From positions 2,661,175 through 2,716,477 of the forward strand of contig CP070638.1 of assembly GCA_020354025.1 (NCBI GenBank): a DNA stretch of 55,303 bases, written 5' to 3'. How positions within the stretch are numbered: position 1 is the stretch's first letter; each line of letters opens with the position of its first letter. Both the position numbers and the translations under genes were made by a program. Under the pieces are notes generated by a model. That model was not told where the DNA came from, searched no databases, and was given only the letters and a program-made list of their open reading frames with translations. The stretch is from Fidelibacterota bacterium. GTDB taxonomy: Bacteria; Fidelibacterota; Marinisomatia; SCGC-AAA003-L08; TS1B11. Below are positions 27,543-47,372 of this stretch, one piece after another.

Positions 27543-28424
27543 TTATCTCATGAGGTATTGCGGCAGGAGCTGGGGAAACCAGGTAGTGCGGGAACGGTTC
27601 CCCAGAAAATAGTCCCAGAGGGAGATACGCCGGCGTTCCACCGGGCGAACAACCACCGGACGCCTGGTGTCCCCGGTAAGCTGGCCCGTCAAGGTAACGG
27701 CATCTTCGAATCCGCCCAGGATGTCCACTAGGCCCAGCTCCAAGGCCTGGCGTCCGGTAAACACCTCTCCGGTGGCTAGCTCCCTGACTTGCTCCAGGGA
27801 TAAATCCCGCTCCGCTGCTATCACCTCGGTGAACTGGGCGTGGAGGTCGTCGATCACCCGCTGAAAGCTGCGGCGGTCACTGTCAGTGGGAGAACGGAAA
27901 GGCGAGCCGGCGTCCTTCAAAGAACCACTCTTGATCACCTCCATCTGCAGACCGAGCTTATCCATCAGCTCAGCGGCCACCGGGTAATTGAGGGTAACTC
28001 CAATGGACCCGGTAGTGGTCCCCGGGTTGGCCATGATGGTGTCGGCGCCCACGGCCACATAATAACCCCCGGACGCGGCCACCGTACCCAGGGAGGCTAC
28101 AACCGGCTGGGACCCCTGATCCCTTAGTTTGCGCAGCTTTCCGTAAATCTCTTGGCTGGCAGCTACCACACCACCCGGCGAGTTAATCTGCACCAGGATA
28201 GCATCGATATCTTTCCTTTGGTGGAATCGGTCAAGCTGGCGGATAATCCGCTCACTTTCGACAATCTGCCCCTCGACCTTTACTACCCCGATCCGGGGGC
28301 CGTCACCGGTCTGCCAGGTCTCGGCTGGTGGACGGCGAAACAGGGACATGACCAGCAGGACCAGGAAAAGACCGACGATCCAGAGTATCCACTTAAGCAC
28401 CCGGTCGTAGCGGCTGACGCTCAT
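27543..28424 (-). CDS. sppA: Signal peptide peptidase SppA, single-domain type
   Basis: 293 residues. N-terminal membrane anchor (ILWIVGLFLVLLVMSLF). S49 peptidase core with INSPGGVVAASQEIY, the nucleophile Ser in VAASGGYYVAVGADTI, and the general-base Lys in SGSLKDAGSPFR. It degrades cleaved signal peptides in the membrane. Half the size of the E. coli duplicated enzyme, like the Bacillus form. It overlaps the lytic transglycosylase stop by 4 bp. Confidence 0.93.
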   Translation of the reverse strand: MSVSRYDRVLKWILWIVGLFLVLLVMSLFRRPPAETWQTGDGPRIGVVKVEGQIVESERIIRQLDRFHQRKDIDAILVQINSPGGVVAASQEIYGKLRKLRDQGSQPVVASLGTVAASGGYYVAVGADTIMANPGTTTGSIGVTLNYPVAAELMDKLGLQMEVIKSGSLKDAGSPFRSPTDSDRRSFQRVIDDLHAQFTEVIAAERDLSLEQVRELATGEVFTGRQALELGLVDILGGFEDAVTLTGQLTGDTRRPVVVRPVERRRISLWDYFLGNRSRTTWFPQLLPQYLMR

Positions 28425-34256: not shown

Positions 34257-35483
34257 TTATTGTTCGATGCTTTCTATTATCTTAATATAGTCCTGAGCGA
34301 GCTTTTCTGCTGAAATATTCTTGCTGACATATCGATAACCATTTCCCCCTAATACCTTTCTCTTTTCTTTACTCTGATATAATTCTAGAATCGCGTTTTC
34401 GAATGCTTCTTTATTACCGGGATTAACTGCAATTCCACAGTTCGCTTCGTCGACGACCAGCCTGGCACTAGCTCCTTCTGCCGCTATTACGATGGGCTTC
34501 TTCAGGGCCATGTAATCAAACAATTTGGTAAAGAAGCAATATTGTAAAAACTTGTGATGTTTTACCGGAACAAGGCAAATATCAGCATTATTGATATGCT
34601 TTGTTATTTCCGTTTTCGTTACTGGTGGCAGGAGTAGAACGTTCTTTATATCATGCTTATTTATATACTCATGGATATACTGCTTTTGGCGACCGTCTCC
34701 GATTAAAACAAATAATATTTCACTGTTTTTATCAAAGCTTTCGGCAACAGATAAAAGGGTATCAAAGTCATAAATGGCGCTATGGGCACCACTATACATA
34801 ATTATGAATTTTTTTTCCCATTCCTTGTTTTTTTCCCACAACTTGGGCTTATTGGAATTTAGTGTTTCAAAGTCCACCGGATTAGGAATCAGACCTATTT
34901 TCTTATTAGTCACTCCCTTTTCTGTTATTAAATATTTCAACATACCTGATGAGTTTACAACTGTATGCGATGATTTGCGATAAATGTAATTTTCCAGCAA
35001 ATAACTAAGGCGAATTAATATCCGGTTTTTTACAAATCCCAGCTCCACCGCCGCAACAGGCCAGGGATCTCTGACATCAAAAATAAATGGTATTTTCTTT
35101 AAGGCGCTTATTATAATTGCTACAATACCAACAAAGAGTGGTGGAGAAGAAACAATAATAAGATCTGGTCGCTTAATAGTGATCCCAGCGCACAATGAAG
35201 AGAAGGTGTAGGTAAAATATGAAAACATTCTACCTAAAAATGTACTGTAACCTATAACCGTATCGAAAACACGTAATACAGTTATCCCTTTTTTAATTCT
35301 TTCGGGAAAGAATATTTTTCTTTTGTAATTATGAGGTTTATGACCAGACACATAGTTGATCATACCTGATACAACAGTTACGGAGTGGGCCTCTCTAGCC
35401 CAATATTTTGCAAATATGTTGAATCTGGCTATCCCGGGATCCTTTTCGGATGTATATCTTTGCTCAAATATTAATATCTTCAT
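34257..35483 (-). CDS. Family 4 glycosyltransferase (WbuB-like)
   Basis: 408 residues from MKILIFEQRYTSEKDPG. GT-B donor domain with KKIGLIPNPVDFE, FIIMYSGAHSAIYDFDTLL, IGDGRQK and KPIVIAAEGASARLVVDEANCGIAVNPGNKEA. WbuB-type enzymes transfer amino-sugars such as L-FucNAc to lipid-linked sugars. A longer TTG start adds 14 residues without support. The codon use is clearly AT-rich compared with the housekeeping operon, suggesting recent acquisition. Last gene of the polysaccharide operon. Confidence 0.86.
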   Translation of the reverse strand: MKILIFEQRYTSEKDPGIARFNIFAKYWAREAHSVTVVSGMINYVSGHKPHNYKRKIFFPERIKKGITVLRVFDTVIGYSTFLGRMFSYFTYTFSSLCAGITIKRPDLIIVSSPPLFVGIVAIIISALKKIPFIFDVRDPWPVAAVELGFVKNRILIRLSYLLENYIYRKSSHTVVNSSGMLKYLITEKGVTNKKIGLIPNPVDFETLNSNKPKLWEKNKEWEKKFIIMYSGAHSAIYDFDTLLSVAESFDKNSEILFVLIGDGRQKQYIHEYINKHDIKNVLLLPPVTKTEITKHINNADICLVPVKHHKFLQYCFFTKLFDYMALKKPIVIAAEGASARLVVDEANCGIAVNPGNKEAFENAILELYQSKEKRKVLGGNGYRYVSKNISAEKLAQDYIKIIESIEQ

Positions 35484-35643
35484 GTCAGGAACAGTGGCTT
35501 TATGAAAATAATCGTCCTTCGGCAATTCAAGGTCCTGGGAAAAATCCGGAACAGGGCAGAATAGTTTTGTCGCCCGATATGCGATAACAGCTGGCTGAAT
35601 CGGTCCGAGAAATCTCTAAGTGCTAGCAATATGGGAGCGATCT

Positions 35644-43472: not shown

Positions 43473-43715
43473 TTTCAACGGAAGTTATATGCGGGAAACG
43501 GGGATGTCAACCACAACGACTCGCATAGGTTCCCGTGCCAAAAGGAATGTCGTTCGGGGCATGGCTGGCGAATCACGGCAGTTTTGGGGCGAGTAAAACC
43601 TTGGATACACAGCGTTTCGCCCGTAGTTTTTCGCTAATGGGTTCCCAGTTCATTGTGTCGATGTGATCCAGCAGAACCGAGATATCACTATTATCATAAC
43701 CAGGAGGGGATATCA

Positions 43716-45938
43716 ATGCGGGTAGCGACAGCATACGTGATTCTGGCGCTTTTTCTGTTCGGCTGCGCCCGGGAGAAGGGGCCCGAGATATCGGAGCTTC
43801 CCAGGGCAGAGATCAGCGATCTGACCAGCGTCTATCCGGCCGAAAGCCTGGAGCAAAGGGACGTCGCCTTCAGGGATAACCGGCTGCTGAGCATGCGGCA
43901 TACCGACGCCAGGTATGAAATGCCGGCTTACAAGACCAGGGGCGAGTGGGAGGAGCGGGCGGCATATATCCGTGACCGGGTGCTCGTCTCCGCCGGGCTG
44001 CTGCCCCTGCCGGAGAAAACCCCCCTGAATGCCAAGATTTCCGGAAGGATCGACCGCGATGACTACAGCGTGGAGAAGGTCTATTTTGAGAGCTATCCGG
44101 GTTTTTATGTCACGGGGAACCTTTACCGGCCGCAGGGTCGGCCGGGGCCGTATCCGGGCATCCTGGCACCTCACGGTCACTGGAGCCAGGGCCGGCTGGC
44201 CCACGAGGAGCGCGGTTCGGTGCCGGGGAGGTGCATCAACTTCGCGCGGCAGGGGTACGTCGTCTTCTCCTACAGCATGGTCGGTTATAACGACAGCAAG
44301 CAGCTCGACCACAAGTTCGCCGCTGACAGCCTGTCGAGTGTCTGGGGCATCAACCTGCTCGGGCTGCAGTTGTGGAACAGCATCCGGTCGCTGGACTTTA
44401 TCACATCGCTGCCGGAGGTGGACCCGGAGCGGATCGCCGTCACCGGCGCTTCCGGGGGCGGCACCCAGACCTTCATGCTGACGGCGGTGGATGATCAGCA
44501 GCGGATAAAGGCGGTAGCGCCGGTCAACATGATATCGGCCCATTTTCAGGGCGGCTGTCTGTGTGAGAACGCGCCCGGGCTGCGGCATGAGGTGTTCAAC
44601 GTCGAGGTTGGCGGCCTGGCGGCCCCCCGGCCGCTGCTCATGGTGTCGTGTACCCACGACTGGACGCTGAACACGCCCAGGGTGGAGTATCCGATGATGA
44701 GGACGATCTACCGGCTGTACGGCGCGGACGACAGGCTGAAGTACGTGCAATTCGATTATCCGCACAATTACAACCGGGCCAGCCGCGAGGCCGTGTACGA
44801 GTGGTTCGGCAGATGGGTGCTGGAAGCCGAAGATCCCGCCGCGCTGAAGGAAACGCCTTTCGAACCCGAGAAGGACGAGGACCTGCTGGTCTTTCCGGAC
44901 ACCGGTCCCCCCGGCGACCTCGACGCCGGTGGGCTTACCAGGTACCTGCGGCAGAAGGCCATCGAGAACGTACAGAGGTACTGGCCGTCCGACCGGGGGA
45001 GCCTGGAGAGGTTCCGTGATGTCTACGGGAGCATCTACCGGTACGTGATCGCCGCCGAAGTCCCGCCGGAGGTGACGGCGGTAGAGACCGGTCTGGCCGC
45101 GGGAGAAGGCTATATTGTCAGCCGCCTGCTGATAGCGCGCAGCGGCCGTAATGACTGGATACCGGCGATCTGGTACCGGCCGGCAGATGGAGCCCGGAGC
45201 GCCGCCGTGGTCGTCCATTCGCGGGGCAAGGTCTTGCTCGCCGGGCTCGACAAGGCCGCGCTCGCCGGGCTCGACAAGGTCGCGCTCGCCGGGACCGACA
45301 AGGTCTTGCTCGCCGGGCTCGACAAGGTCTTGCTCGCCGGGCTCGACAAGGTCTTGCTCGCCGGGCTCGACAAGGCCGAGCCGGTGGGGCTGGTCAAGGG
45401 ACTGCTCGAAAGAGGCCAGGGTGTCCTGGCAATCGACGTCTTCAAGACCGGCGAGCACGTGCTGCAGGAGGGGACCGAGACCCAGCGCGATGAGAGCTTC
45501 AGACACTTCACCACCTTCAACCGCACGGACACCCAGGAACGGGTGCAGGACATACTGACGGCGCTGGCGTTCCTGCGAGATAACCGGGGCCTGAAGGAAG
45601 TGCACCTGGTAGGACTGGAGGAGGCCGGAGCGTGGGCCATACTAGCCGGCGCCGTGGCTGGAGACCTGGCCGGCCAGGTGGTCGCCCAGGGAGCGAACCT
45701 GGACCATCACAATGACGCCGAGTCGTTGAGACTGTTCGTGCCCGGGCTGGCCCAGGCCGGAGGTATCCAATCCGCCATTGCGCTGTCCGCGCCGCAGGCA
45801 ATAACGCTGCATAACGTCGGGGCCGAGTTCGGGCTTGAGGAAATCGAGCAGGTCTACGGGATAACGGGCGATCAGGACCGCTTCCAGGCCTTCCAGGAGG
45901 AGCTCTCCGAAGCGGATATTGCCGCCCTGCTGGAGTAG
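43716..45938 (+). CDS. Alpha/beta-hydrolase lipoprotein (acetyl-xylan-esterase/dienelactone-hydrolase type)
   Basis: 740 residues, CAGGAGGGG before the ATG. Lipoprotein signal with lipobox LFGC. The hydrolase domain has GPYPGILAPHGHW and the nucleophile Ser246 in VTGASGGGTQTFM, with VSCTHDW and YPHNYNRASREAVYEW later giving the Asp/His. The second half (about 430-740) is a related, degenerate domain without a clear nucleophile. At residues 506-561 there are six copies of V-LLAGLDK (24 nt each) plus a diverged seventh, an obvious late expansion. GC-rich with G/C-ending codons, unlike the AT-rich genes nearby. Substrate unknown. Confidence 0.8.
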   Translation: MRVATAYVILALFLFGCAREKGPEISELPRAEISDLTSVYPAESLEQRDVAFRDNRLLSMRHTDARYEMPAYKTRGEWEERAAYIRDRVLVSAGLLPLPEKTPLNAKISGRIDRDDYSVEKVYFESYPGFYVTGNLYRPQGRPGPYPGILAPHGHWSQGRLAHEERGSVPGRCINFARQGYVVFSYSMVGYNDSKQLDHKFAADSLSSVWGINLLGLQLWNSIRSLDFITSLPEVDPERIAVTGASGGGTQTFMLTAVDDQQRIKAVAPVNMISAHFQGGCLCENAPGLRHEVFNVEVGGLAAPRPLLMVSCTHDWTLNTPRVEYPMMRTIYRLYGADDRLKYVQFDYPHNYNRASREAVYEWFGRWVLEAEDPAALKETPFEPEKDEDLLVFPDTGPPGDLDAGGLTRYLRQKAIENVQRYWPSDRGSLERFRDVYGSIYRYVIAAEVPPEVTAVETGLAAGEGYIVSRLLIARSGRNDWIPAIWYRPADGARSAAVVVHSRGKVLLAGLDKAALAGLDKVALAGTDKVLLAGLDKVLLAGLDKVLLAGLDKAEPVGLVKGLLERGQGVLAIDVFKTGEHVLQEGTETQRDESFRHFTTFNRTDTQERVQDILTALAFLRDNRGLKEVHLVGLEEAGAWAILAGAVAGDLAGQVVAQGANLDHHNDAESLRLFVPGLAQAGGIQSAIALSAPQAITLHNVGAEFGLEEIEQVYGITGDQDRFQAFQEELSEADIAALLE
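45231..45398 (+). repeat. In-frame 24-nt tandem repeat within the esterase gene
   Basis: Six 24-nt units of GTCTTGCTCGCCGGGCTCG-ACAAG type (45231, 45255, 45279, 45303, 45327, 45351) plus one diverged unit at 45375. Three copies are identical at the DNA level; others differ by one to three bases. Each adds the octapeptide VLLAGLDK, so the reading frame is preserved. Confidence 0.9.
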
Positions 45939-45947
45939 CCGGCCCTG

Positions 45948-46117
45948 CCCGGCAAGTGCCGGGTGGGGGCCCGACAGGAGTCGGGTGGGGGCCCGACAGG
46001 AGTCGGGTGGGGGCCCGACAGGAGTCGGGTGGGGGCCCGACAGGAGTCGGGTGGGGGCCCGACAGGAGTCGGGTGGAGGCCCGACAGGAGTCGGGTGGGG
46101 GCCCGACAGAAGTCGGG
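45948..46117. repeat. Array of eight 22-bp tandem hairpins
   Basis: Units begin exactly every 22 bp at 45948, 45970, 45992, 46014, 46036, 46058, 46080 and 46102. Each is CCCGAC-AGGA-GTCGGG (6-bp stem, 4-nt loop) plus the 6-bp spacer TGGGGG. Unit 1 reads CCCGGC-AAGT-GCCGGG, changing both sides of one base pair so that the stem is kept. The last loop is AGAA. It starts 10 bp after the esterase stop codon. There are no variable spacers, so it is not a CRISPR. Role unknown. Confidence 0.9.
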
Positions 46118-46198
46118 CGGGGGCCGGTGAGAACCATAGCCGGCAGGCGGGCAACCGAGCCCAGCCTCCCCGGTTAAAAGTCCGTACAAAACCCGTAC

Positions 46199-46440
46199 AA
46201 AATTCCGCAAAATCCCACTATTTTTCTGCACTATAGAGTTTTTTCCCGACGGGAGGCCGTAAAAAAATGCAAAGTGCAAAATGCAAAGTGCAAAGTGCAA
46301 AATGAGGAAGGGACCCTGAGCGGCGGGACAGGGGCGATATGGCGGCAGCGTTATCATAGCGCCGGAATATACAGAAGTAGTTGGGATTTGTCGTTCGCCT
46401 GGTGCGCCTGGTGCGCCTGATGCGCCTGGTGCGCGAAAAA
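46199..46440 (+). repeat. Dispersed ~240-bp element, copy 3
   Basis: Same order as copies 1 and 2: AATTCCGCAAAATCCCAC, then TTCTGCACTATAGAGTTTTTT and CCCGACGGGAGG, a middle with tandem GCAAAGTGCAAAAT-like runs, TATCATAGCGCCGGAATATA, GTCGTTCGCC and four TGGTGCGCC units (one TGATGCGCC) ending GCGCGAAAAA. It begins about 80 bp after the hairpin array. Confidence 0.75.
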
Positions 46441-46715
46441 TCACTCACCCCCCTCACTTCCCCGCCGCTGGCGGGATAAACGTGAGGCCCCCTCTCTCAG
46501 AGATAGAGGGGGAAGAGGGCGGCGATCAGGCGAAGGCGTCGTCACACTTCGACGAGGTCGAAGGTGCGATGAGGCTGAGGGGATAGCAGGACCGCATCAG
46601 AGGGTATCAGGGCGATTCGGGATGCAATCAGGAGGTGGCCGGGTTAACTTCCCGGGAGAGGGAAAAATCAGGCCCGGGGAGGGTCATCCGGTAACTTCAA
46701 GGCGGGAGGTGCGAT
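46441..46715. other. Intergenic stretch after the dispersed element
   Basis: GC-rich DNA with a C-rich/G-rich inverted repeat at 46488-46512 (CCCCCTCT and complement, 9-nt loop) and no coding signal. The last 20 bases hold the ribosome site GGGAGG of the next gene. Confidence 0.5.
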
Positions 46716-47372
46716 ATGGCGTTTCTCAACGAGGCAGCGGCCGCGGAAGTAAGCAAGCAGCTCGAGGGACTGGACCAGCCGGTGAGACTGATCAATTTCA
46801 CGCAGACCATCGAATGCACCTACTGCGAGGACACGCGCAGGCTGATGGAGGAGCTGGCGGCCTTGTCGGACAAGGTCAGGCTGGAGGTGTACAACTTCAT
46901 CGAGGACAAGGACAAGGCGGAGGAGTTCCAGGTGGACAAGATCCCGGCGACGCTGATCCGGGGCGAGCAGGACCCGGGCATCCGCTTTTTCGGGATACCG
47001 TCGGGCTACGAGTTCCCCAGCGTGCTGGAGGCGGTAATGATGATCTCCAAGGGCGATTCCGGCCTGTCCAAGGCCACCAAGGAACGCCTGGCGGCCCTGA
47101 CCCAGCCGCTGCACCTGCAGGTGTTCGTCACCCCCACGTGACCGTACTGCCCCCAGGTGGTCCACCTGGCGCATCAGTTCGCGATGGAGAGCGGGAAGGT
47201 GGTGGCCGACATGGTGGAGGCGACGGAGTTCCCGCACCTGAGCCACCGCTACAACGTCCGGGGCGTGCCCAAGACGGTGGTTAACGACCAGAGCGCTGTT
47301 GAGGGCGCGGTGCCGGAAGCGGTCTTCCTGGAGCAGGTGCTGGCGGCCGCTGAGAAGGCGCCTTCGGCGTAG
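46716..47372 (+). CDS. Selenocysteine-containing protein disulfide oxidoreductase (two thioredoxin-fold domains)
   Basis: 218 residues if UGA at 47139 is read as selenocysteine (residue 142). Without recoding, the gene appears as two pieces. Domain 1 has the active site CTYC (34-37) and cis-Pro in KIPATL. Domain 2 has VFVTPT-U-PYC (Sec142, Cys145) and cis-Pro in RGVPKTVV. In homologues of this PDO/glutaredoxin-like family the position is CPYC, so Sec replaces the first, nucleophilic Cys, the usual place for selenocysteine. A SECIS-like hairpin follows at 17 nt. GGGAGG lies upstream of the ATG. Likely cytosolic thiol-disulfide exchange, possibly electron supply to peroxidases. Alternative: a Cys-to-stop mutation in a recent pseudogene, but the downstream frame is intact for 77 codons. 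Confidence 0.83.
47139..47169 (+). promoter_or_regulatory. Candidate bacterial SECIS element
   Basis: After UGA come 11 nt, then a 7-bp stem CCAGGTG / CACCTGG (47153-47159 with 47163-47169) around a GTC triloop. Opening the top pair gives a GGUC-containing apical loop, the sequence used by the E. coli fdhF SECIS, which SelB recognises. The loop begins 17 nt after UGA, within the normal bacterial range (about 16-37 nt). The stem lies in codons, so the peptide is constrained too. Confidence 0.75.

Follow-up and report, generated by a model that had tools for sequence, protein, structure and literature searches.

A probable selenocysteine-containing protein disulfide oxidoreductase in a Fidelibacterota bacterium

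A gene in a 55,303-nucleotide stretch of the genome of a Fidelibacterota bacterium (the window; contig CP070638.1, positions 2,661,175 to 2,716,477, assembly GCA_020354025.1) very probably encodes a protein disulfide oxidoreductase (PDO) of two thioredoxin-fold domains, with UGA142 decoded as selenocysteine (Sec) by SelB and Sec-tRNA(Sec) under the direction of a downstream hairpin. The first-pass annotation of the sequence had proposed a selenoprotein PDO with a Sec-Pro-Tyr-Cys motif, a reading now strongly supported by the Sec machinery of the genome, a TGA at the same codon in relatives, selection, codon bias and the hairpin. The features are as follows, in window coordinates.

46716..47372, + strand: predicted PDO selenoprotein, complete coding frame, 218 aa with U142 (TGA read as U; TIGR02187 match; PDB PDOs 1j08 and 1a8l; ribosome site)
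46815..46826, + strand: domain 1 redox motif C34-T-Y-C37, ordinary cysteines (both retained in 80 of 80 relatives)
47139..47141, + strand: in-frame TGA, inferred Sec codon U142, in place of the first Cys of the domain 2 CPYC (TGA in 9 Sec forms, the window included, vs Cys in 74)
47139..47150, + strand: domain 2 redox motif U142-P-Y-C145, with TGA read as U (translation, PDB PDO alignments, relatives)
47153..47169, + strand: putative bacterial SECIS hairpin CCAGGUG-GUC-CACCUGG, 7 bp stem, 3-nt loop (folds; bSECIS model; Sec vs Cys forms; alignment)

The ATG at 46716, which has a GGAGG-like ribosome site immediately upstream, opens the frame in which the TGA at 47139-47141 lies, and this frame closes at a TAG at 47370-47372. 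The TGA had been placed where the first Cys of a CPYC motif is expected; the frame translation agrees, and both 1j08 and 1a8l have Cys there. The frame was also said to continue intact for 77 codons past the TGA; it does continue, with 76 sense codons and the stop. The normal CTYC of domain 1 was read correctly, as was GVPKTV, which follows U-P-Y-C in the translation. Translation table 11 yields two ORFs from the gene, 46716-47141 and 47157-47372, as foreseen for conventional gene calling, and a longer out-of-frame ORF (46622-47284, 220 aa) overlaps it, making miscalling possible.

Throughout the window, 47 TGAs are flanked by an open frame of at least 50 codons upstream and at least 40 downstream. 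The TGA at 47139 is alone among them in that GC3 is strongly coding-like both before and after it (0.89/0.91), and the 7 bp stem that follows it is the longest among the 30 TGAs listed; the open frame is therefore not due to chance. The other TGAs of the window were rejected as Sec candidates, none showing both a long hairpin and strong coding bias.

The protein matches NCBIfam TIGR02187 (PDO_seleno_TRX) with 282.2 bits (E 1.9e-84; curated cut-off 185) over residues 6-210, or profile positions 2-208 of 209. It has the two thioredoxin-fold domains, each with a CxxC-type motif, that characterize this family, CTYC at 34-37 and UPYC at 142-145. Thioredoxin-type domains are also recognized by Pfam, and the alignment with the PDOs of solved structure, 1a8l, 1j08, 2ayt, 2ywm and 2hls, is nearly full length.

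Relatives were drawn from a species-level genome collection, which gave 80 loci. A TGA stands at exactly codon 142 in seven of these and Cys in the other 73; the full set holds nine Sec forms, with the window included, and 74 Cys forms. The expectation that homologues would have Cys at position 142 was thus confirmed in all 74 non-Sec relatives compared. The identical TGA codon is found in two congeners (G001 and G002), in Chloroflexota, in Zixibacteria and in one unclassified bacterium, and the third congener, G003, has TGC. G001 is the same genome as that of locus L010, labelled Candidatus Neomarinimicrobiota.

Comparison with the congeners also bears on the part of the gene past the TGA. 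Against G001, G002 and G003, pN was 0.182, 0.093 and 0.151 after the TGA and 0.205, 0.204 and 0.215 before it, with pS of 0.70-0.82, close to saturation of synonymous sites. Purifying selection past the TGA matches in strength that ahead of it, and the rarity of nonsynonymous differences there indicates that the downstream part is translated and useful.

The first-pass annotation had called for selA, selB, selD and selC in the same genome, and all were found. In the source genome (G000; 3.40 Mb, one contig, 95% complete) SelA lies at C1:2770168-2771265 and is adjoined by SelB about 100 bases downstream; a canonical tRNA-Sec with anticodon TCA is present, as is SelD (C1:1667777-1668703). The SelD gene has one in-frame TGA at the active site (HGAGUACKL), followed by a strong hairpin (-21 kcal/mol; TGA at 1531 of locus L096), and by its sequence pattern this SelD is itself a selenoprotein. 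A peroxiredoxin-like (Prx-like) protein with GGW-U-PPC, of the known Prx-like UxxC type, is encoded on the minus strand at C1:2343893-2344201 (L151:1501-1809). At least three genes with the pattern of selenoproteins are thus visible in the genome: PDO, SelD and the Prx-like protein. A full SelA (E below 1e-100) is encoded in each of the six Sec-form genomes that lie outside the genus; among 14 genomes with a Cys form that were searched, a full SelA is present in 11, and in three the match is weak or missing. SelA and tRNA-Sec occur in all four genomes of the genus, and SelD was not found in G001, a genome about 70% complete.

Bacterial SECIS elements have been modelled with a loop of 3-9 nt, a stem of 4-16 bp, a G in the first two loop positions, a spacing of 16-37 nt and an MFE at or below -7.5 kcal/mol (PMC13188914). 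The window hairpin, whose GUC loop begins with G 18 nt after the UGA and which folds with -13.3 kcal/mol over 39 nt, lies within all of these limits. Stems are 5-8 bp in all nine Sec forms, those of the Cys forms being mostly 1-5 bp long (Mann-Whitney p 7e-6), and folding energies likewise differ (p 3e-4), both p-values being optimistic in that they ignore the kinship of the sequences. Stem sequences vary by lineage (CCAGGUG/CACCUGG, GCAC/GUGC, CCGGGC/GCCUGG) with the pairing retained. When the region was recoded synonymously, about 7% of recodings equalled the window hairpin in stem and energy together, which makes it unexceptional when taken alone. The corresponding figures were 0.15-1.4% for loci L031, L050, L010 and L051, about 4-10% for the window, L052, L033 and L022, and 20% for G002, whose 5-bp hairpin is weak (-8.6 kcal/mol). 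Extending the folded SECIS region to 71 or 111 nt gave no stability beyond that of shuffled sequences (z -0.43 and -0.33), so that the short hairpin alone stands out, and a scan of the window at Rfam gathering level gave no RNA family match. The hairpin is good supporting evidence for the Sec reading, short of proof.

Other explanations of the TGA have to be weighed against decoding as Sec. A single base change from TGC or TGT would suffice to produce it through a sequencing or assembly error, and the genome was probably assembled from a metagenome; such an error would, against this, have had to recur independently at one codon in nine sequences from several assemblies and phyla. With the same TGA in separately assembled congeners and in other phyla, an error at 47139-47141, which had been named as grounds for rejecting the selenoprotein, is excluded in practice and its probability is vanishingly small. 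It is also extremely unlikely that the gene is a pseudogene or truncated, with a nonsense mutation stopping the protein at residue 141 so that the first domain alone is complete. The two ORFs under table 11 would fit such an event, and so would the departure of the gene from the neighbourhood kept by its congeners, but the TGA is shared among several species and phyla, the sequence beyond it still shows codon bias and purifying selection, and the genome has the complete Sec machinery.

Could UGA instead stand for a different residue (cysteine or tryptophan) owing to an altered code or a suppressor tRNA? The frame is open whenever TGA is a sense codon, and Cys would suit the motif. Long genes of the window nevertheless stop at TGA, for example those on the minus strand with ends at 28423, 36866 and 40844; canonical tRNA-Sec, SelA and SelB are present, and SelD and the Prx-like protein of the same genome show the standard Sec pattern. 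This reading is accordingly very unlikely, and decoding of UGA142 as Sec is preferred.

On a quick tree the Sec/Cys state requires at least five changes, which implies that Sec has been gained or lost repeatedly. G003, with Cys, is nested in the Sec-bearing clade of the genus (clade support 98; pairing with G001 84). Its PDO gene (L101, 1456-2112) has TGC at codon 142, yet it carries a SECIS-like hairpin with a 7-bp stem and a G-first loop; for this hairpin alone, about 3% of synonymous recodings match stem and energy together. The G003 genome has SelA, tRNA-Sec and a TGA-containing SelD. These sequences suggest a recent change from Sec to Cys that left a SECIS remnant, as has been described for FdhA and HesB-like proteins (PMC1794560), and there is a moderate probability that within the genus the PDO made this switch in G003 while the SECIS-like hairpin and the Sec machinery were kept. 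Such a switch would provide, within one genus, a natural pair in which to study why a Sec-capable lineage abandons Sec at site 142.

SelB with Sec-tRNA(Sec) would decode UGA142, insertion being directed by the hairpin directly downstream. The catalytic role of the residue and the partners of the protein are predicted from sequence together with established knowledge of PDOs and Sec enzymes. Sec142 would be the nucleophile that attacks a disulfide or other oxidised substrate; it would form a selenenylsulfide with Cys145, or mixed bonds to substrate molecules, and would be resolved by Cys145. Dithiol-disulfide exchange and reduction by thioredoxin reductase are predicted for the protein by homology; electrons may come from that reductase, perhaps relayed through the CTYC of domain 1, and may pass onward to protein disulfides or peroxiredoxins. 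A thioredoxin reductase gene is present at C1:1996704, adjoining a thioredoxin-like gene and away from the PDO locus.

No reductase or peroxiredoxin gene adjoining the PDO gene was found in the window, where its neighbours are genes for an esterase-like protein, an ankyrin-repeat protein and polysaccharide export. The position of the gene differs from that in the three congeners, in all of which it is next to the gene of a GTPase called YchF-like on sequence alone; this is not so in the window. GC3 of the PDO gene is about 0.9, most genes of the window lying at 0.35-0.7; it is also high, 0.81, in the esterase-like ORF upstream (43653-45938). Directly upstream of the PDO gene there is a repeat-rich stretch (45960-46434), with a 22-bp unit repeated 7.5 times at 45960-46125, 7/14-bp units at 46264-46301 and 9-bp units at 46396-46434. 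Elsewhere in the window, ORF 34257-35525 (422 aa) has a GC of 0.36 vs 0.53 for the window and is possibly a foreign gene.

Sec forms of the PDO family have been predicted since 2006 (PMC1794560, PMC9312934, PMC13188914), some Asgard archaea also have one (PMC11227280), and NCBIfam's own family name already marks Sec. A literature search of titles and abstracts gave no report of a Sec PDO in Marinimicrobia, and one in this lineage was apparently unreported before. The present protein adds a sound further case to a selenoprotein family already predicted; it is not new in kind, and the general understanding of selenoproteins is unchanged by it. It corrects the annotation of a gene that a standard gene caller would split, adds a well-supported Sec PDO to a lineage for which no such report was found, and provides a same-genus Sec/Cys pair usable for studying Sec-Cys exchange.

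Among known proteins, the archaeal and Aquifex PDOs 1a8l, 1j08, 2ayt, 2ywm and 2hls share with it two thioredoxin-fold domains and two CxxC-type sites, with CPYC in domain 2; in the two alignments inspected, 1j08 and 1a8l differ in having Cys at position 142 in place of Sec. AhpF homologs (TIGR03143, TIGR03140) resemble it distantly in their double-thioredoxin N-terminal part (E 1e-29 and 3e-22), but the window protein is without the fused flavoprotein reductase domain and its scores are far under the curated cut-offs of both models. The closest likeness in kind is to the known Sec-form PDOs, among them ABB15282.1, in which the Sec may likewise lie in the second domain; these belong to TIGR02187, have a UxxC motif with one Sec and are predicted in Sec-using bacteria; the difference is one of lineage, the nearest named relative of the window protein being labelled Candidatus Neomarinimicrobiota.
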